A DNA stretch of 8,032 bases from an uncultured Veillonella sp. (lineage in GTDB: Bacteria; Bacillota; Negativicutes; Veillonellales; Veillonellaceae). The stretch covers positions 1-8,032 of the forward strand of contig CABQQJ010000027.1 of NCBI GenBank assembly GCA_902466275.1. Reading direction: 5' to 3'. Positions 1-8,032 of this stretch are shown in pieces. The stretch's first letter is position 1. Every line of letters starts with the position of its first letter. Both the position numbers and the translations under genes were made by a program. The notes beneath the pieces are model-generated. The model was not told the origin of the DNA and searched no databases. It saw nothing but the letters and a program-made list of their open reading frames with translations.

Positions 1-1
1 T

Positions 2-433
2 AATGTGCCAGATCAAATTAGGTCCCATTATTTTAAGCTCAAGATTGTAGAAATATTTTTATTATTATCTGTAATCTCTACAGACTCCTATGAAAAACGA
101 GGAAGTTACCGAAAGCAACAGGTAGATATTGTAAAAGCTGTAAGTGAATATGTATCGACACAGTATATGAAGCGTATTACTATTGATTCCTTGTCTGAAC
201 AGTTTGATATTCCTACATCTACCCTGAAGCGTTGCTTTAAAGGTGTATTTGGTACAACCATACATCAATATCTAAAAGAATGTCGTATTAATGCGGCGAA
301 GAGATTGCTTCAAGACTCAGATCAGTCTATTTTAGAAATCGCTAATGCGGTAGGGTATGAGAATGGTAGTAAGTTTACGGGTGCATTTAAAGCGGCTACT
401 GGTGTAACGCCAAGTGCTTATCGTAAGGTTTAA
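2..433 (+). CDS. AraC/XylS-family transcriptional regulator, C-terminal part (5' truncated)
   Basis: This is the DNA-binding end of an AraC/XylS-type activator. The frame is open to the left edge, so the N-terminal ligand-sensing part lies outside the window; about 143 codons are visible of a family usually 250-300 residues long. Counting from the GTG at 5, the first helix-turn-helix is about residues 58-80 (ITIDSLSEQFDIPTSTLKRC) and the second about 108-140, with the family signature IANAVGYEN..KFTGAFKAATGVTPSAYRK. The segment before it (HYFKLKIVEIFLLLS) resembles the linker of PchR-like siderophore-responsive regulators. The gene is followed, on the same strand, by two TonB-dependent receptor genes. 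PchR/YbtA-type regulators typically activate a neighbouring receptor when its siderophore is present, so control of the downstream genes is a reasonable inference. The family call is firm; the PchR-like subtype and the targets are inferred. Confidence 0.9.
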   Translation, partial: NVPDQIRSHYFKLKIVEIFLLLSVISTDSYEKRGSYRKQQVDIVKAVSEYVSTQYMKRITIDSLSEQFDIPTSTLKRCFKGVFGTTIHQYLKECRINAAKRLLQDSDQSILEIANAVGYENGSKFTGAFKAATGVTPSAYRKV

Positions 434-510
434 ATAATTTGGATCTTATATTATTCTAGATAGAAATTTTGTGCTTTAGGCTAGGTTTGATAGTCTATGA
501 AAATTAAATA

Positions 511-558
511 TTGTCCGAAACGTATGTTTTTGGTCTATTCGGAGTAGATATGTATAAT
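511..558 (+). promoter_or_regulatory. Candidate promoter for first receptor gene
   Basis: Two readings are possible. One uses TTGGTC (530-535), a 17-base spacer and a perfect TATAAT (553-558); this places the start near 565 and leaves the left arm of the hairpin mostly untranscribed. The other uses TTGTCC (511-516), an 18-base spacer and TCTATT (535-540), each matching consensus at four of six positions. That would start transcription near 547, just ahead of the hairpin, and is fully conserved in the second copy, whereas TATAAT is not (CAAGAT at 5744-5749). The position is therefore uncertain. Confidence 0.3.
514..543. promoter_or_regulatory. Inverted repeat TCCGAA-N18-TTCGGA (possible operator)
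   Basis: The arms TCCGAA (514-519) and TTCGGA (538-543) are perfect reverse complements separated by 18 bases, and are identical in the second copy at 5705-5734. Only one base of the spacer differs between the copies (G526 versus A5717). It could be a dyad operator spanning a promoter, or a small RNA hairpin. No known regulator consensus was recognised. Confidence 0.45.
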
Positions 559-627
559 ACACTTTGCTACCATTAAATCTGTAAATGATTTTCAATGTCA
601 TTTGGTTGTGGTGGTAAAGTGTATTTT
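554..627 (+). ncRNA. Leader hairpin, copy 1 (putative structured 5' UTR element)
   Basis: Bases 556-573 pair with 608-625 as an uninterrupted 18-bp helix: AATACACTTT with AAAGTGTATT, GCT with GGT through one C-G and two G-U pairs, and ACCAT with GTGGT. One further pair (554-627) lies beyond a T-T mismatch. The 34-base loop contains a smaller hairpin (about 582-604) built on the Fur-like dyad. The copy at 5745-5814 forms the same helix with compensatory changes: C570-G611 becomes A-T, and A556-T625 becomes G-C. Single-sided changes also keep pairing (T573-G608 to T-A; T565-A616 to T-G). Retained G-U pairs favour an RNA rather than a DNA-level dyad. A T-run (624-628) overlaps the 3' end of the helix, so an attenuator is possible. 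No known riboswitch consensus was recognised. Confidence 0.55.
584..602. promoter_or_regulatory. Fur-box-like dyad, copy 1
   Basis: AATGATTTTCAATGTCATT is a 19-base imperfect dyad with seven of nine positions symmetric. Aligned in the best register (581-599) it matches 13 of 19 positions of the classical Fur consensus GATAATGATAATCATTATC. A Fur-type repressor site upstream of a TonB-dependent receptor fits iron- or heme-responsive control. The dyad also forms the inner hairpin of the leader structure, so the symmetry may reflect RNA folding instead. Confidence 0.5.
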
Positions 628-652
628 TATATGCATGGTTAAATATATGTCT

Positions 653-657
653 GGAGG
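653..657 (+). promoter_or_regulatory. Ribosome binding site deciding the start at 665
   Basis: GGAGG lies seven bases before the ATG at 665. This, together with the signal peptide that begins immediately at that ATG, fixes the start and rules out the longer in-frame reading from the TTG at 602. Confidence 0.9.
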
Positions 658-664
658 AAATTTA

Positions 665-3600
665 ATGAATAGGAGTTGGGTGCGGGCAAGGAGATATGTC
701 ATACTATCCTGCGCAGTAGCGTGCTGGTTGCAAATGCCGGTGGTTATGGCGGACAATGCGACTGTAACAACCGATGTGGTTCATGTTCGCGGTACATGGG
801 CTGAAGAGCAGGCAAAACAAGAGTCTCAGCAGACGACGATTATCACGAAGAAGGATATTGTCAAAAAGCAGGCAAAATCCGTAGAAGATATTGTATTTTC
901 CGAAACTGGCGTATCTAGAACCGTCGATTCGATGGGGCGCGTCGGCGTATCTATCCGTGGAGCGGATCCTCGTCATACCTTGATTCTTGTGGATGGACAG
1001 CCTGTGATGGGCGACCTTGCCAAATATCAAGGCGCCGGTGATGAATTACAGCGTCTCGGTACAGAAAATGTAGAACGTATAGAAATTATCCAAGGTGCAG
1101 CCAGTGCTAAATACGGATCCGATGCCATCGGTGGTGTTATCAATGTTATTACCAATAAACCGCGTAAGACCGCTGGCCTTCAGTTTAATGCGGAAGGTCG
1201 TAGAACTAAAGGCGACGGTGATATCGTACCGTTTTCCAATTTCTTTATGCGCGCTGATTCTGGCTCATTAGGTAAGTTAAAAGTTAATATTCACGGTAGT
1301 AAACGTGATATTATGCCTATTTATGCTAGCGAGCGGCGTCGTATCAGCGCTATGACCAATGATGAAGACCACGGGTTTTTAAAGAATTCCCTACGATATT
1401 ACGGTACAAATTCCAATATAGGTTTGGCCGCTACGTATGATATTAATGATAAACAGTCTTTGGGAGTCCGTATCGATAGGTATAATGAAGACTTGGAACG
1501 ATATGTAAAGCGCAGTACTTCTTATTTGGAACCTCAGGTTCATTACAAACGGGATTTAGATAGGAATAATCTTAATTTGACGTATACTGGTCAGGACAAT
1601 AAGAGTTCGTGGAAAGCGGAACTGAATTATACGCGGACCAAAGAAGATGATGTAACATTAACCAGTGACTACGGGAACAGTACCTATGAAGGGAAAAATA
1701 CATTAAACTATGTGGATAATGTAGATCATCGTCAATGGAGCGTAACACTCGGGGCAGATACGCAAGTCAATAAGAAACATCTCTTGTCTTATGGAATTGG
1801 GTTTATACGGGAGACAGGCGAAGGTAGCAGACTTAAAAATGCGCCTCATACCTATAAACGGCATATCGACCCCTGGGATTATGATAAAAGTCTGGCAGTA
1901 AAAAACGGTGTTCCCTCATCCACAATTTATGACCATTCTTTCAGAAAAAACGAGGCCGGTGTAGAGCAGTGGAATAAGGAGAAAGAATGGTATAACGGAG
2001 ATAAAAGCAAGCCAAACACATTGCCGGAATTTACTTACGAAGAATATCTTCAATATTTGGATCCCCAGGCGGGGATTGATTCAGCGGCCGCAATGGGGCT
2101 TGTGGACGGCCCCGTGACGGAGCGTACGCTGAAAAAACGGAATCCTGAAGCTTATGCGCGATATCAGCAGTTTGCTAAACGTTTATTAGCGGAGAATAAA
2201 GAATTTATTGAAGACTATCATTTTAATAAGGAGGGCCGAAAAGATGAAAACGGTAAGTATTATCCAGCACTTTATGATGCCTATTTACCGAGCTTTTACT
2301 ATGGCGCCGTACCGGATTTTGATTCTACGAAGTTGAAATTAAACGGAGCTTATTTTAAAGAAGAGTATTTAAAACGCGTTAATCAACAGACCGCAGGACG
2401 TGCAGAGATCAAGAAACAGAATTTCTTTATTCAGGATACGTGGCAGGTTAATAAAAATACTACTTTATCACCAATTATAAGACTGGATCATAGTGATTTA
2501 TTTGGCTCCAACTGGTCGTTTAATTTCGGTATGACTCATAATGTACATGGAAATGTACACCGCAGATTAAAGGCTAATGTGGGTACCAGTTATACGGAAC
2601 CTGGTATGGGCGAGCTGTATTATAACTGGGAAATGTATGGCCCAAATATTACAAATGCCACAATCGGTGGCGGTGAAGCCCGATTAGGTTGGTATTGGGT
2701 CGGAAATCCGAACCTTAAACCGGAGAAATCCATGAATTTTGACCTCTCTTTGGAAGGGGAAAATAAAAATACCTATGGTAAAGTAACCGTATTCCATAAT
2801 AATATTCGGAATTATATGTCGATTTACAATACGGGATATTTGATGGATTTTTATCCTCAGTATGATGAATCTACCACATATGGAGCGGCGAAATTTGCTC
2901 ATGCACCAGATATGATTTACAGTTTCCGTAATATCGGCAAGGCCCAAATTACGGGACTTCAATTTGAAGTTAAACAAACTTTGAATAAACACTGGAAGGC
3001 CCGTTTGGGATATACGTATTTACGAGCGCTTAATAAGAGCGATAAAGATATGCCTCGTGAATTACTGGATAAACCTCGTCATAAAGTGGATATCGGTGTG
3101 GATTTTGAGGATAAGGCTAGCGGATGGAGCGGTAGTCTGTGGGGAGATTATTATATTCATATGCTGGATAGTAACTCCTTGTCTGGTGGCGGTAATTATA
3201 TGGTATCTTATATTGATCCTAATAATTCCGATCGTTCCGTTATCAGATATAATTTGAATAATAGAAGAACCGCCGATATGTATGAACATAAAACTTATGG
3301 CATATGGAATTTGATGATTCAAAAGAAGATTGATAAGGATTCACGAATCTATTTCGGTATTGATAATCTCTTTAATCATCGTGATGATGATCGGGCTTTA
3401 TCGGCTCGAGTATATCGTATCGGATTAAATATGAAATTCGGTTTCGGTTCAGGTGAAAGTAAAACGAAACTTACGAAGGAGCAGTTTGAATCGTTACCTC
3501 CGGTTATGCTGCAGGATTTTATTACGCGTCCTTTCGATACAGACAGAAAACGAGGTATGGAACTTGTAGGTGATTATCGTGTACGTAATGACAGTCATCT

Positions 3601-5686
3601 TGGATCTGATCGTCCTGCTACGCGGGTGACTGCTACAAGTTACGTATCCGACGAGGCCGCAAAGAATCTGGCGGACCGCAAGGAACATGGCTTGAATCAA
3701 CGTATACGTGTCGGTGTCGATGCTCGTATTAACGATAATACGAATGTACGTGTTGTGGGTAGTGCTTCTGGCCAAGCTGGTGTAGATAGCAGTCATGAAA
3801 CAGAAGGCTCTAAAGGTTTTAATCATCAACGTCTCGAAGAACTAGATGTAACACATCACGGTTCTAAATGGGATCATAGTGTTGGTCGTATTACTGAATC
3901 TATGGGGGTTACAGGTTATTGGTTTAATAAAGAATATGACGGCCTTCGTAGTGTTTGGACGAATAAGAATACTCAAGTCCGTATCGGTGTGGGGACCTTT
4001 AAACATAGTACGGGAATTAGCGACAGTGCTTATACTCATGCTATTTATACGCATTTTAAACGGGTTCCAACGGTAGAGGAATTCTTAGGTGTTACTATGG
4101 ATTCGGACGGTGCCAATAAGGAACTCATCGTACCAAATGCAGGGAATACTATTAATTTCTACCAGCAATTAAAAGCCTTGCGCGATAAGGAAGGCACCTT
4201 AGATGCGGAGGTAGGTACATTAAAGAAGAAAATCGACGATATGACTTCCGATATCTGGTCTAAAGAATTTATTGACGGCATGTCCGCGGATCAACTGGCT
4301 CCATTAAAAGCGGAGTTGGCAAAGTTGGAAGCATCTTTGCCGGATGTGGAAGCTCGTGTGGCGAAAGAACGGGAACCGTTACGAGCTGCGCAGTTTGATG
4401 TGTTGCGCCGGATGCAGGAAATCGCAGTGAAAGCTTATGGTGCGGATGCGGCTAAACAGACTGTATCGATTAAGATGCCTGATGTGTCAGTAACGTATTC
4501 TTATAAATCGCGATACTATGATGAAGATGATGAACAATGGTATGAAGACGAACGTACTTTCACTCAGAAAATAGCACCGGGAACGATTGGGCTTGATAAG
4601 AAAAACCCATTGTTTGAAATGAAGTTGAGTGATACCACTGTTCTTTCCAATGGCGGAAAAACGTTTATTTCAAATTGGTACAATCAGAATAAGGCGGCTA
4701 TCGTGGAGGCGTATCGTGCCAAGGCGAAAGATATAGCAACCTATAGCTTCGGCAATAATCCGTATACGATGAAATTTGAAGATAATGCCTTTGACGGGCT
4801 GGACAAGTCTATTTATAAGGCGAATGTCGTTGATATTAACGACTCCGGCACGTCTGGTCTTATTAACGTAAAAGGAAGTGCCTATTATCCTTCTATGATA
4901 GCTTCGTACTTTAATAGCTTGGCCCGAATGCTTGAAAAAGCGGACGGCAACAGTCGTTTGCCGAGAGAGGCGCTAGGCAAATATACAGGTGCTGTTATTC
5001 CTTCAATAGGTGTCGTATTGGAGCGGGATACAATTCCACCAATTGAAAAGGCTACCTATGTTCAAGTTAAACATATGGTAACACCTCGACTTGGCTTAGC
5101 TGCGTGGTACTTACGCTCCTTTGGCGGTAGTGACTATCGCTTCTATACGGCGAATGGTAATGCTACAGAAGCGCATGAATTCAACAATATAGCTAATGTT
5201 TTCGGCATTGGGGCTAAGTATCAATTAAATCATAATGTAAGTGTTTCCTTCGACTATGGACAAAACCGTAGTGACTTTGGTCGCTTCATGAATGGCAATA
5301 CTCATTATGACCATAAGGCTGGATCCTCTCAATTCGATATCAAGGGCCGTGACGTAGGTGGTGTACCTCATTTCTGGGCATTGCGCTTTGATGTTGGTCG
5401 TGCCGATATGAATAAACCTGGTTCTTGGAATGCCTATGTGGATTATAAATACTTCGCACATGGTTCCTTCTTCGGCGGCAATGGTACAGAGGCCGTACCT
5501 GATCGCTACTTAGATGGTATTAAGAGCTTTACCTTTGGTGGTGGCTATGTGCCAACTAAAGATCTTCTTTTACAAGCATTCTATACATTTGATGCAAAAG
5601 GGATCAATAAACGAGATACCTTATATGGATCTGAAAACTTTAAACTTGGGAATTATACTCGTTTCCAAATGACGTATAAATTCTAA
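665..5686 (+). CDS. Giant TonB-dependent receptor fused to a C-terminal porin-like beta-barrel
   Basis: This 1673-residue outer-membrane protein should import a ligand using TonB-transmitted energy. A signal peptide (1-29, RARR then a hydrophobic core, cut after VMA) precedes a probable TonB box (TDVVHV, 36-41). The plug spans about 58-165 with the hallmarks VSIRGADPRHTLILVDGQPV and NVERIEIIQGAASAKYGSDA. Barrel 1 runs from about 170 to 925; it has the conserved NPNLKPE (681-687) and ends in a typical terminal strand, VYRIGLNMKF (916-925). Ordinary receptors (about 600-1000 aa) stop there. This one continues through a ~40-residue linker into a second barrel (965-1673) that ends in a second terminal strand, YTRFQMTYKF. 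No stop or frameshift interrupts the junction. A ~185-residue loop insert (402-586) differs strongly from its paralogue. The ligand is unknown; siderophore, heme or another metal chelate is inferred from the context of an AraC-type regulator and a Fur-like site. Confidence 0.93.
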   Translation: MNRSWVRARRYVILSCAVACWLQMPVVMADNATVTTDVVHVRGTWAEEQAKQESQQTTIITKKDIVKKQAKSVEDIVFSETGVSRTVDSMGRVGVSIRGADPRHTLILVDGQPVMGDLAKYQGAGDELQRLGTENVERIEIIQGAASAKYGSDAIGGVINVITNKPRKTAGLQFNAEGRRTKGDGDIVPFSNFFMRADSGSLGKLKVNIHGSKRDIMPIYASERRRISAMTNDEDHGFLKNSLRYYGTNSNIGLAATYDINDKQSLGVRIDRYNEDLERYVKRSTSYLEPQVHYKRDLDRNNLNLTYTGQDNKSSWKAELNYTRTKEDDVTLTSDYGNSTYEGKNTLNYVDNVDHRQWSVTLGADTQVNKKHLLSYGIGFIRETGEGSRLKNAPHTYKRHIDPWDYDKSLAVKNGVPSSTIYDHSFRKNEAGVEQWNKEKEWYNGDKSKPNTLPEFTYEEYLQYLDPQAGIDSAAAMGLVDGPVTERTLKKRNPEAYARYQQFAKRLLAENKEFIEDYHFNKEGRKDENGKYYPALYDAYLPSFYYGAVPDFDSTKLKLNGAYFKEEYLKRVNQQTAGRAEIKKQNFFIQDTWQVNKNTTLSPIIRLDHSDLFGSNWSFNFGMTHNVHGNVHRRLKANVGTSYTEPGMGELYYNWEMYGPNITNATIGGGEARLGWYWVGNPNLKPEKSMNFDLSLEGENKNTYGKVTVFHNNIRNYMSIYNTGYLMDFYPQYDESTTYGAAKFAHAPDMIYSFRNIGKAQITGLQFEVKQTLNKHWKARLGYTYLRALNKSDKDMPRELLDKPRHKVDIGVDFEDKASGWSGSLWGDYYIHMLDSNSLSGGGNYMVSYIDPNNSDRSVIRYNLNNRRTADMYEHKTYGIWNLMIQKKIDKDSRIYFGIDNLFNHRDDDRALSARVYRIGLNMKFGFGSGESKTKLTKEQFESLPPVMLQDFITRPFDTDRKRGMELVGDYRVRNDSHLGSDRPATRVTATSYVSDEAAKNLADRKEHGLNQRIRVGVDARINDNTNVRVVGSASGQAGVDSSHETEGSKGFNHQRLEELDVTHHGSKWDHSVGRITESMGVTGYWFNKEYDGLRSVWTNKNTQVRIGVGTFKHSTGISDSAYTHAIYTHFKRVPTVEEFLGVTMDSDGANKELIVPNAGNTINFYQQLKALRDKEGTLDAEVGTLKKKIDDMTSDIWSKEFIDGMSADQLAPLKAELAKLEASLPDVEARVAKEREPLRAAQFDVLRRMQEIAVKAYGADAAKQTVSIKMPDVSVTYSYKSRYYDEDDEQWYEDERTFTQKIAPGTIGLDKKNPLFEMKLSDTTVLSNGGKTFISNWYNQNKAAIVEAYRAKAKDIATYSFGNNPYTMKFEDNAFDGLDKSIYKANVVDINDSGTSGLINVKGSAYYPSMIASYFNSLARMLEKADGNSRLPREALGKYTGAVIPSIGVVLERDTIPPIEKATYVQVKHMVTPRLGLAAWYLRSFGGSDYRFYTANGNATEAHEFNNIANVFGIGAKYQLNHNVSVSFDYGQNRSDFGRFMNGNTHYDHKAGSSQFDIKGRDVGGVPHFWALRFDVGRADMNKPGSWNAYVDYKYFAHGSFFGGNGTEAVPDRYLDGIKSFTFGGGYVPTKDLLLQAFYTFDAKGINKRDTLYGSENFKLGNYTRFQMTYKF
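1868..2419 (+). other. Divergent large loop of barrel 1 (first receptor)
   Basis: Residues 402-586 lie between two segments shared with the downstream paralogue: DPWDYDKSL at the start and DTWQVNKN just after. Between them the two proteins are hard to align, although both are hydrophilic, rich in Tyr, Lys and Glu, and end near a similar KLNG-AxxxEEY stretch. A long loop between conserved strands is expected to be extracellular and to contact ligand, phage or bacteriocin; that role is inferred. Confidence 0.6.
3557..5686 (+). other. Second beta-barrel domain, resembling Negativicutes porins
   Basis: Residues 965-1673 show alternating amphipathic strands in two blocks. The first (965 to about 1150) begins MELVGDYRVR and includes LNQRIRVGVDARINDNTNVR and SVGRITESMGVTGYWFNKEYDG, which recall the 'GR...G.G...D..FDG' strands of SLH-porins in this class. 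The second (about 1440-1673) includes HFWALRFDVGRADMNKPGSW, VDYKYFAHGSFFGG and FTFGGGYVPTKDLLLQAFYTF, close to the usual porin end 'kpGsw..y..Y' and 'lGa.Yvp.kn..l...Y'. The final residue is Phe, as expected for a BAM-recognised beta-signal. No N-terminal SLH domain is visible, so peptidoglycan tethering is not indicated. The porin relationship is pattern recognition, not a database match. Confidence 0.65.
4157..4453 (+). other. Helical/coiled-coil insert within the second barrel
   Basis: Residues about 1165-1263 are rich in Lys, Glu, Ala and Leu with heptad-like spacing (LKALRDKEGTLDAEVGTLKKK, then LKAELAKLEASLPDVEARVAKE). Prolines break them into two or three helices, suggesting a helical hairpin. 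An acidic stretch (DEDDEQWYEDE, about 1285) and a mixed segment follow before barrel strands resume near 1440. Such a helical block is foreign to a barrel and must project on one side of the membrane; which side cannot be decided from sequence. Confidence 0.6.
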
Positions 5687-5704
5687 AAATTTATATCCGA
5701 TTTG

Positions 5705-5734
5705 TCCGAAACGTATATTTTTGGTCTATTCGGA
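5705..5734. promoter_or_regulatory. Inverted repeat TCCGAA-N18-TTCGGA, second copy
   Basis: TCCGAA (5705-5710) and TTCGGA (5729-5734) repeat the arms found upstream of the first receptor, with the same 18-base spacing. An extra TCCGA occurs at 5696-5700, just before this copy. The conservation suggests a shared operator or RNA stem. Confidence 0.45.
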
Positions 5735-5744
5735 GTAGATATGC

Positions 5745-5814
5745 AAGATACACTTTGCTAACATTAAAATGTGAATGATATTCAATGTCATTATATGTTG
5801 GTGAAGTGTATCTT
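5745..5814 (+). ncRNA. Leader hairpin, copy 2 (putative structured 5' UTR element)
   Basis: Bases 5745-5764 pair with 5795-5814 in an uninterrupted 20-bp helix, including G-U type pairs at 5756-5803, 5757-5802 and 5759-5800. Relative to copy 1, A5761-T5798 replaces C-G and G5747-C5812 replaces A-T; the T-T mismatch of copy 1 becomes A5746-T5813. The loop carries the Fur-like dyad as an inner hairpin. Five T residues (5813-5817) follow the helix. It could act as a leader attenuator or, being 58 bases after the upstream stop codon, partly as a terminator for the first receptor gene. The long 30-base loop makes a plain terminator less typical. Confidence 0.55.
5774..5792. promoter_or_regulatory. 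Fur-box-like dyad, copy 2
   Basis: AATGATATTCAATGTCATT is symmetric at eight of nine positions around a central C. In its best register (5771-5789) it matches 14 of 19 positions of the Fur consensus, including AATGATAxTCA. This is the better of the two copies. Confidence 0.55.
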
Positions 5815-5862
5815 TTTAATTTTTGTGTGGGAGATACAAGACATATGTTTAGTTATAAGTTT

Positions 5863-5868
5863 AGGAGG
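5863..5868 (+). promoter_or_regulatory. Ribosome binding site of the second receptor
   Basis: AGGAGG stands five bases before the ATG at 5874, a near-ideal Firmicutes-type site that sets the start. Confidence 0.92.
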
Positions 5869-5873
5869 GCATA

Positions 5874-8032
5874 ATGAACCGGTGGGGACATACAAAGCGT
5901 ACCATAATCCTGTCTAGTGCAGTTGCCTTGTGGCTTAGCGCACCTCTAGTGGTTTGGGCAGATAATGCGACTGTCACTACAGATGTTGTTAATGTGAAAG
6001 GCACATGGGCAGAAGAAGAAGCAAAATTGAACTCACAGCAAGTGCAAATCATTACCAAGAAAGAGATTGAAAAGAAACAGGCGAAGTCCGTCGAAGACAT
6101 TATTTTTACGCAAACAGGTGTATCTAGAACAGTTGATGCTATGGGGCGTGTGGGCGTGTCCATTCGCGGTGCAGAAGCGCGTCACACTCTCATCCTCGTA
6201 GATGGTCAACCAGTGCTAGGTGATTTTGATAAGTACTCTGGTGCGGCAGATGAAGTACAACGTTTGGGTACAGAGAATGTAGAGAGAATTGAAGTTATTC
6301 AAGGTGCGGCTAGTGCTAAATACGGATCCGATGCAGTAGGTGGTGTAGTTAATATCATCACTAAAAAAGCACAAAAGAAACCATCCGTACAATTTAATGC
6401 TGAAGGCTTGCGTCGCAAGAGCGATGGCGATGTATTTCCGTTCCAAAACTTCTTCATTCGTGCCGATTCTGGTCAAATGGGCAAGTTAAAGGTTGGTTTA
6501 TCAGGTAGTAAACGAGATCTTATGCCTGTTCTAGCATCTGTTAAACGTCGTGCCTCTGGGATGGCCTTTGATTATGCAAAACATAACTTCAAGCCAAATG
6601 TACTTCGTTACTATGGTGATGCGGCAGATATCGGTCTTGTAGCGACCTACGAGGCAAATGATAAAAATAAGGTAGAATTGCGACTTAATCGTTACACGGA
6701 AGACCTTGTGCGCGATGTTAAGCACTCCGACTCCGATTTAGAGCCACAGCAACACTTCAAACGTACGGCAGATCGTAATACAGCTAACCTGCAATGGTCC
6801 TCTAGAGCTGGAAAGAGTGACTGGACTGTAGAAACTAATTACTCTCGTATTAAAGAAAATGACGTAGCGCTCATTAACTATACAGGTCGTTCCGCTTATG
6901 AAGGCTCTAATGAGTTGCGTTATATTGATAACATCGATCATCGTCAATTAGATATTCGAGTAAATGCTAATACGCAAGTCAATAAAAATCATTTGCTAAG
7001 CTATGGTGTTAGCTATGCTCGTGAAGAAGGTTCTGGTAGTCGCTTAAAGAGTTCTCCTAATACAAGTACGATGTACATTGATCCATGGGATTACGATAAA
7101 AGCTTGTTAGTAGACCGCCTTGATCGTCTCGTGCGACGTAAAGGCGATAATAGTATTAAAGTTTACTCTCACATCCATGACTATAAATTCATTAATTCCG
7201 GTGGCGGCATGCCGCAATGGGATATGGATTATGAATACTATGGGGCTGAAACAAAGGCACAAAAGCCGGGCATTACGTACGATGATTATGTGAATTATGG
7301 TTTATCGGAAAGCAGACTTAGTGAATGGTCAAGCACATCGCCGAATAATCAACCCGTAACGGATGAATTTAAGAAGCGATATTATGCTTTAGAAAATCGG
7401 TTGAAATCGGAAAATCCTGAAATGGCGGCACATCGTGCAAACATCGTAGGTGACTATTTTAAATATGGTGAGTCTAACGATCCAGAAATGCGTAAGAAAG
7501 CACCTAAGCTAAATGGTAAGGCTTTCTTGGAAGAGTACCGTAATCGCGATCAACGCTTGACTACTGGTAGTGGTACGATTCGTAAAATAAACGCTTACAT
7601 TTCTGATACATGGCAAGTTAATAAGAATTTAACATTGTCTCCAATTGTGCGCTTCGACAATAGTAGCTTGTTTGGTTCTAACGTATCTGCATCTTTGGGC
7701 ATGACATATAACGTTAAAGGTAATACACATCGCAGATTTAAAGCCAATGTAGGTACCGGTTATACAGAGCCTGGTATGGGCGAATTGTGGTATAACTGGG
7801 AAATGTACGCTTCTAACCCTGTAGGGATTGGGGTAGCAAAACTCGGTTGGTATTGGGCTGGCAATCCTAATTTGAAACCAGAAAAATCGGTCAATTTCGA
7901 CATGAGCTTGGAGGGTGAAAATAAAAATACATATGCACGCGTAGGTGTATTCCATAACCGTATTAAGAACTATATGTCTGTATACTTCACTGGTGATTTT
8001 ATGGACTTCGCACCATATCTTAAAGGTGATGC
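5874..8032 (+). CDS. TonB-dependent receptor, paralogue of the preceding gene (3' truncated)
   Basis: A second outer-membrane receptor, open to the right edge; 719 codons are visible. A signal peptide (residues 1-29, cut after VWA) leads to a mature start, DNATVTTDVV, identical to the upstream protein, with the TonB box near TDVVNV. The plug (to about 165) agrees with the upstream paralogue at roughly four of five residues, including RHTLILVDGQPV and ASAKYGSDA. The barrel carries YTEPGMGELWYNWEMY and NPNLKPEKS (NPNL from 664). Between DPWDYDKSL (403) and DTWQVNKN (about 578) the sequence diverges sharply from the upstream copy, so ligand recognition may differ. Whether this protein also carries a second C-terminal barrel lies beyond the window. 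The gene has its own copy of the leader block and its own ribosome binding site. Confidence 0.95.
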   Translation, partial: MNRWGHTKRTIILSSAVALWLSAPLVVWADNATVTTDVVNVKGTWAEEEAKLNSQQVQIITKKEIEKKQAKSVEDIIFTQTGVSRTVDAMGRVGVSIRGAEARHTLILVDGQPVLGDFDKYSGAADEVQRLGTENVERIEVIQGAASAKYGSDAVGGVVNIITKKAQKKPSVQFNAEGLRRKSDGDVFPFQNFFIRADSGQMGKLKVGLSGSKRDLMPVLASVKRRASGMAFDYAKHNFKPNVLRYYGDAADIGLVATYEANDKNKVELRLNRYTEDLVRDVKHSDSDLEPQQHFKRTADRNTANLQWSSRAGKSDWTVETNYSRIKENDVALINYTGRSAYEGSNELRYIDNIDHRQLDIRVNANTQVNKNHLLSYGVSYAREEGSGSRLKSSPNTSTMYIDPWDYDKSLLVDRLDRLVRRKGDNSIKVYSHIHDYKFINSGGGMPQWDMDYEYYGAETKAQKPGITYDDYVNYGLSESRLSEWSSTSPNNQPVTDEFKKRYYALENRLKSENPEMAAHRANIVGDYFKYGESNDPEMRKKAPKLNGKAFLEEYRNRDQRLTTGSGTIRKINAYISDTWQVNKNLTLSPIVRFDNSSLFGSNVSASLGMTYNVKGNTHRRFKANVGTGYTEPGMGELWYNWEMYASNPVGIGVAKLGWYWAGNPNLKPEKSVNFDMSLEGENKNTYARVGVFHNRIKNYMSVYFTGDFMDFAPYLKGD
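7080..7589 (+). other. Divergent large loop of barrel 1 (second receptor)
   Basis: Residues 403-572 correspond in place to the divergent loop of the upstream receptor but differ in most residues and by about 15 in length. It contains a Gly-rich GGGMPQWDMDYEYYG stretch and a charged helical part (KKRYYALENRLKSENPEMAA), the latter reminiscent of RYQQFAKRLLAENKEF in the first protein. It is probably extracellular and a candidate specificity determinant. Confidence 0.6.

Follow-up and report, generated by a model that had tools for sequence, protein, structure and literature searches.

We report that an 8,032-nucleotide stretch of DNA from an uncultured Veillonella sp. (assembly GCA_902466275.1, contig CABQQJ010000027.1, positions 1 to 8,032 of the forward strand; hereafter the window) almost certainly encodes, in the single frame 665-5686, a polypeptide that comprises a TonB-dependent receptor and a porin half of the OmpM type. 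The frame is open without interruption from a TTG at 602 through 5686, and the ATG at 665, preceded by GGAGG at 653-657, yields a product of 1673 amino acids (aa). For comparison, 218 sequences (the window, 25 locus frames and 192 of 297 database proteins selected by length) were reduced to 42 non-redundant fusions, and conservation was scored as the Jensen-Shannon value multiplied by the ungapped fraction. The chain contains the following features:

665..751, + strand: signal peptide, residues 1-29 (sequence, by eye)
764..787, + strand: TonB-box-like segment, residues 34-41 (alignment of the 42 fusions, by eye)
818..1138, + strand: receptor plug, residues 52-158 (PF07715, 1.2e-21)
1160..3439, + strand: receptor barrel, residues 166-925, ending in VYRIGLNMKF at 916-925 (PF00593, 2e-34; CirA, 1.6e-37)
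3440..3553, + strand: linker, residues 926-963, presumably periplasmic (36-73 aa in the 42 fusions; mean conservation 0.352)
3554..3997, + strand: strands b1-b7 of the second barrel, residues 964-1111, with the conserved loop L3 at 1081-1085 (AlphaFold2 model; OmpM profile matches)
3998..5047, + strand: insert in loop L4, residues 1112-1461, modelled as largely helical, including a long coiled coil (models; strand parity)
5048..5683, + strand: strands b8-b16 of the second barrel, residues 1462-1673, ending in YTRFQMTYKF (hhalign; PF16930)
5456..5518, + strand: loop L7, residues 1598-1618, the most conserved loop (0.761, compared with 0.754 for the plug)

As judged from PF07715 and PF00593, the first half is a TonB-dependent receptor with a plug and a C-terminal barrel, the PF00593 match covering residues 520-902 and reaching the last profile position (436/436). 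The closest solved structure is CirA (E 1.6e-37), and CirA and related receptors share the plug, the barrel, the TonB-box-like segment and the terminal strand. In contrast, CirA ends at the barrel with a chain of 639 aa, whereas the fusion has a receptor half of 925 aa and runs on into the porin half. The segment near the N-terminus, assigned by what we take to be the TonB-box motif, reads DVVHV in the window and ESVYVTA, DVIVQAT and similar in relatives (by eye); it is absent from P0118 and truncated in L074. Compared with its family, this receptor half is long, and residues ~440-575, which lie between the regions aligned to known receptors, likely form a separate large surface loop.

A sequence-only reading of the window had proposed that a complete receptor is followed by a second, porin-like barrel, and the Pfam matches to plug, barrel and Porin_5 together with structure modelling support this. 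Searched against porin and outer-membrane protein families, as that reading had suggested, the second half gave Porin_5 (PF16930) above cut-off at residues 1507-1599 as well as OmpM-type profile matches, with an hhalign probability of 99.8 and an E of 9.1e-30 over residues 1510-1673 against 21 OmpM-type proteins. Sequence searches of the PDB with the second half yielded no clear relative, and profile searches only a designed barrel (E 0.00039). An AlphaFold2 model built for the second half by itself matches the 16-strand barrel of Veillonella parvula OmpM1 (VpOmpM1, PDB 8bys) over 286 of its 323 residues, and VpOmpM1 is the best match both by structure and by profile. On this model the second half is a 16-strand barrel of the OmpM kind, complete in itself, while the first barrel is assigned by homology. 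In the numbering of the model, on which we assigned the OmpM-equivalent strands ourselves, b1-b8 span 39-54, 83-96, 101-113, 129-141, 144-155, 161-174, 178-186 and 537-546, and b9-b16 span 551-560, 586-595, 600-609, 644-653, 663-672, 694-706, 709-721 and 735-747; turns of 2-9 residues alternate with loops of 5-350 residues. One difference from OmpM concerns the SLH stalk, whose position is taken in the fusion by the whole receptor: no SLH domain was matched at E up to 1 across the 1673 aa, whereas both scanned OmpM controls match.

Two other topologies were considered. One of them counts 18 strands, by adding model strands 199-208 and 520-529, and places the insert in the periplasm. It was rejected on two grounds: a count of 16 agrees with OmpM1, and the alignment of segment 80-186 to OmpM b2-b7 and of segment 585-748 to b10-b16 leaves two strands in between. 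A single larger barrel, which the sequence-only reading had named as an outcome that would speak against it, is disfavoured because the second half, modelled by itself, fits the OmpM1 barrel to the extent given above. The two terminal signals noted there, VYRIGLNMKF ending at residue 925 and YTRFQMTYKF at residue 1673, recur throughout: by eye, both terminal strands are recognisable in 42 of 42 fusions, the last residue being F in 37 and I or L in 5 for the first, and F in 41 and L in 1 for the second. A short linker is likewise topologically sensible, as both of the barrel ends that it joins should face the periplasm.

The same fusion is present in V. parvula SKV38 (L001) with 98% identity along the whole chain, and a 1673-aa protein that is 98% identical over the second half represents 5095 member sequences. 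That an assembly or sequencing artefact fused two genes is vanishingly improbable. Four inspected copies are broken or masked (L079, L080, L081, L084) and the database lists fragments of the second half, but intact in-frame fusions occur in Veillonella, Colibacter and Megasphaera, including the complete chromosome of SKV38, and the family- and class-wide genome surveys likewise speak against it. The junction error that had been considered at the outset is not borne out, and sequencing error or a contig join was rejected, given the many genomes in which the frame is intact.

Of the 28 genomes in the Veillonella family set, 20 contain a match, one of them (G012) by a fragment only, and one genome matches the second half at 100%. 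Among 300 Negativicutes genomes (the class set), the second half was matched in 68, comprising 41 with strong matches (E < 1e-100), the G012 fragment and 26 with weak matches; the 41 with a strong second half are also those that match the receptor half strongly. By hand count, 69 of the 77 strong gene copies lie in frames of at least 1500 aa, one with an internal stop, and 8 in frames of 274-1448 aa. Because mostly three candidates per genome were scored in this survey, unfused minor copies may have been missed. The weak matches sit in frames that measure 335-600 aa, apart from one frame of 121 aa; inspection of 14 of these 26 genomes revealed OmpM-like proteins or, in L104, a porin lacking SLH. 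In the phylum set, strong matches were found in 3 of 398 genomes, all shared with the class set and all with long fused frames, one also with a short frame. Stand-alone second halves, which the sequence-only reading had thought worth surveying, were represented by proteins of 394-1208 aa; these start at many internal points and, from these scattered starts, were judged to be apparent contig-end fragments. Interruptions occur in four of the inspected loci: a stretch of masked N in L084, and apparent frame breaks or stops in L079 (2680-2860), L081 (3600-3980) and L080; the latter three reflect either real decay or sequencing error. In addition, several fusion paralogues per genome were observed in G003 (Colibacter), G004 (Megasphaera) and G160, and perhaps these serve different ligands.

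The linker, variable in length and poorly conserved, would suit a precursor that is cut there into an ordinary receptor and a separate porin, the fusion merely setting a 1:1 ratio. We nevertheless regard such processing as quite unlikely, because strong matches to the two halves coincide in 41 genomes and a single long frame spans them in 69 of 77 copies; of the 8 short frames, some were examined.

The statement in the sequence-only reading that no receptor-porin fusion had been described holds for the search results listed from the openly accessible literature, among which none was found, but multi-barrel outer-membrane proteins as such had already been predicted, reportedly by Solan in 2021. 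A review on the β-barrel assembly machinery (BAM) contains one passage on OmpM and none of the multi-barrel terms looked for. According to the parts of the source considered here, two barrels in one chain are also predicted for GfcD (PMC11494523). This protein is composed of 12 + 13 strands and serves capsule export, whereas the fusion combines a TonB-dependent receptor with an OmpM-type porin in a heme/iron locus. Multi-barrel outer-membrane proteins are already in print as predictions; among the results listed from the open literature, none described the joining of a receptor to an OmpM-type porin.

The second barrel further differs from OmpM by the ~350-residue insert between b7 and b8, which is 274-450 aa long in the 42 fusions compared with 13 aa in an OmpM of SKV38. 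Because, by strand parity, the first strand should start in the periplasm, the insert would be extracellular. Folded alone, it is modelled as a domain containing a long coiled coil, with a predicted local distance difference test (pLDDT) score of 83.2 and a predicted template modelling (pTM) score of 0.77, and five members searched against Pfam gave nothing above cut-off. Two OmpM-type proteins also carry extra length behind b7 (L093:1428-2963, coiled-coil-like there, and L094:1180-2736), so this loop position may accept insertions.

Conservation in the 42 fusions is high not only in the plug and L7 but also in L3 (0.747) and L8 (0.724), compared with 0.597 for the receptor barrel; L4 is low (0.380), with higher values at its two ends (0.67 and 0.57) and a low core. 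In the 21 OmpM-type proteins L7 scores 0.424, L3 0.566 and the strands 0.46-0.70, so that L3 and L7 are far more conserved in the fusion. Inward residues are more conserved than outward ones in 15 of 16 strands, with b14 reversed, the sides having been set by a hydrophobicity difference that is small in b4, b5, b6 and b14. Among the outward residues, conservation is high in b13-b15 (0.72-0.73) and lowest in b1, b3, b4, b7 and b8. As stated in the parts of the VpOmpM1 study used here (PMC10628300), L3 and L7 form the constriction of that trimeric protein, and by homology they would do so in the fusion. The high conservation of these loops favours, at the level of sequence, a selective pore rather than a mere anchor. 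Moreover, the halves diverge in step, with pairwise distances correlated at 0.87 (861 pairs) and a mean distance of 0.42 in each half, a pattern compatible with an old fusion.

Four further features of the window surround the gene:

2..433, + strand: C-terminal part of an AraC-type regulator that runs off the window (Pfam HTH_18, 9.7e-25; complete with 296 aa in SKV38)
511..625, + strand: leader of fusion 1, with a 67-nucleotide element that is repeated before fusion 2, a strong hairpin and a T run (repeats 93% and 79%)
5702..5815, + strand: leader of fusion 2, a copy of the fusion 1 leader (repeat comparison; RNA fold)
5874..8030, + strand: start of a second tandem fusion that runs off the window inside its receptor half (1690 aa in SKV38)

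The gene order in SKV38 is AraC regulator, fusion 1, fusion 2 (~49% identical to the first over the chain), ExbB, ExbD, TonB, flavodoxin and HutW, and upstream on the opposite strand lie a binding protein, an ATPase and a FecCD-type permease. At 488 bits, HutW exceeds its cut-off of 400; the flavodoxin is BilS-like at 115 bits, under its cut-off of 155. For ExbB, ExbD and TonB the best rows were TolQ, TolR and TolA, with the ExbB, ExbD and TonB models close behind and all under cut-off; these labels were assigned from position and resemblance. The same order is found in L002 and in L079, where the first fusion is broken, and HutW follows in L127. The SKV38 fusions thus lie, like an HmuR-type heme receptor, in a locus with HutW/HmuW, flavodoxin and a TonB system. 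In the parts of the heme-flavodoxin study consulted (PMC10404700), HmuR shares this kind of neighbourhood, with HmuW and HmuF; a figure legend names V. dispar and V. atypica as carriers of such loci and calls HmuR a receptor, and the word 'porin' is absent from the main text. The consulted parts of the V. parvula outer-membrane proteome report nine TonB systems, with 0 occurrences of 'fusion' or 'fused' in the main text (PMC5491611). Of the 300 genomes in the class set, 101 have HutW above cut-off, namely 41 of 41 with the fusion and 60 of 259 without it, G012 among the latter (Fisher 5e-23, ignoring kinship). By hand, HutW was located within ~5 kb of the fusion in 15 of the 41 (G001, G002, G013-G016, G018-G023, G108, G118 and G132).

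Receptors with a surface capture partner are known from TbpAB, HpuAB and SusCD, where the capture or docking task falls to separate proteins, TbpB, HpuA and SusD; in the fusion, the partner would be a loop domain on the second barrel of the same chain. Taking all parts together, we lean slightly towards a receptor, an OmpM-related second 16-strand barrel and an exposed helical L4 domain that act jointly in capture, import and pore formation. The chain would be exported and both barrels inserted by BAM, side by side in the outer membrane and in one uncleaved chain. The receptor would import heme or another iron compound, energised by the adjacent TonB complex, and heme or iron is the probable cargo. 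Fixed beside the receptor mouth, the L4 domain could serve as a built-in capture or docking partner for a ligand carrier, a role that we assign tentatively, and the second barrel would provide a narrow selective pore and the membrane anchor of this domain. Several observations weigh against this proposal. The nearest receptor family is CirA, and the FRAP box with a histidine before NPNL, which we take to mark heme receptors, is incomplete, as the window sequence contains YTEP and GNPNL with no histidine between them (by eye). In 26 of 41 genomes HutW is not adjacent to the fusion. The L4 domain found no good match among solved folds, which does not prove a new fold, and part of L7 is poorly modelled (residues 1606-1613, pLDDT <50).

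The trimeric state of OmpM1 and the OmpM type of the second half would also allow the second barrel to act mainly as an assembly scaffold, gathering three receptors round a porin core, with pore and L4 secondary. The conserved outward residues of b13-b15, including b14 with its outward side more conserved than the inward, could form the contact surface. We consider this unlikely, because conservation overall is highest in the inward residues and in loops L3 and L7, none of which a mere scaffold needs, and the outward residues of b1, b3, b4, b7 and b8 are the least conserved. The sequence-only reading had also suggested a coupling of active import to passive diffusion. That each receptor simply comes with an ordinary porin for general diffusion in the form of the second barrel we regard as improbable; the excess conservation of L3 and L7 over the 21 OmpM-type proteins and the 350-residue domain at L4 point to a selective pore. 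A bolder arrangement, and a long shot, is a gate with two lanes, in which the receptor takes heme in, the second barrel, with its highly conserved constriction, lets out the iron-free tetrapyrrole from the neighbouring HutW and flavodoxin, and L4 strips or holds the incoming heme carrier above both mouths.

In diderm Firmicutes, OmpM fastens the outer membrane to the cell wall; the sole general porins described for V. parvula are its paralogues. In the fusion, this barrel type has no tether, carries a surface domain and is linked to an energised receptor. If the proposal of joint capture, import and pore formation is true, these functions would be combined in one molecule in Veillonella and relatives, with a receptor likely for iron or heme. 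Nature would also provide, in the fusion, a test case for the way in which BAM deals with two terminal signals per chain, and for whether a receptor can bring its own capture partner and pore.

The leader hairpins are stable, with -29 kcal/mol (z -6.4) for fusion 1 at 548-625 and -28.8 kcal/mol (z -5.7) for fusion 2. Hairpin and T run resemble an attenuator, and by eye some stem differences between copies or strains look compensatory; Rfam gave no match up to E 1 within the window. In L003, a sequence that we presume to be Fur-box-like, GATAATGATAATTGGAATTATC, lies upstream of the fusion. Moreover, a motif like GTCTATTCGGAGTAGA / ACTGAATGGAGTAGAA recurs in the window at 511-550 and upstream of the fusions in L003 and L079 (three genomes compared), and is possibly a site of the AraC regulator.
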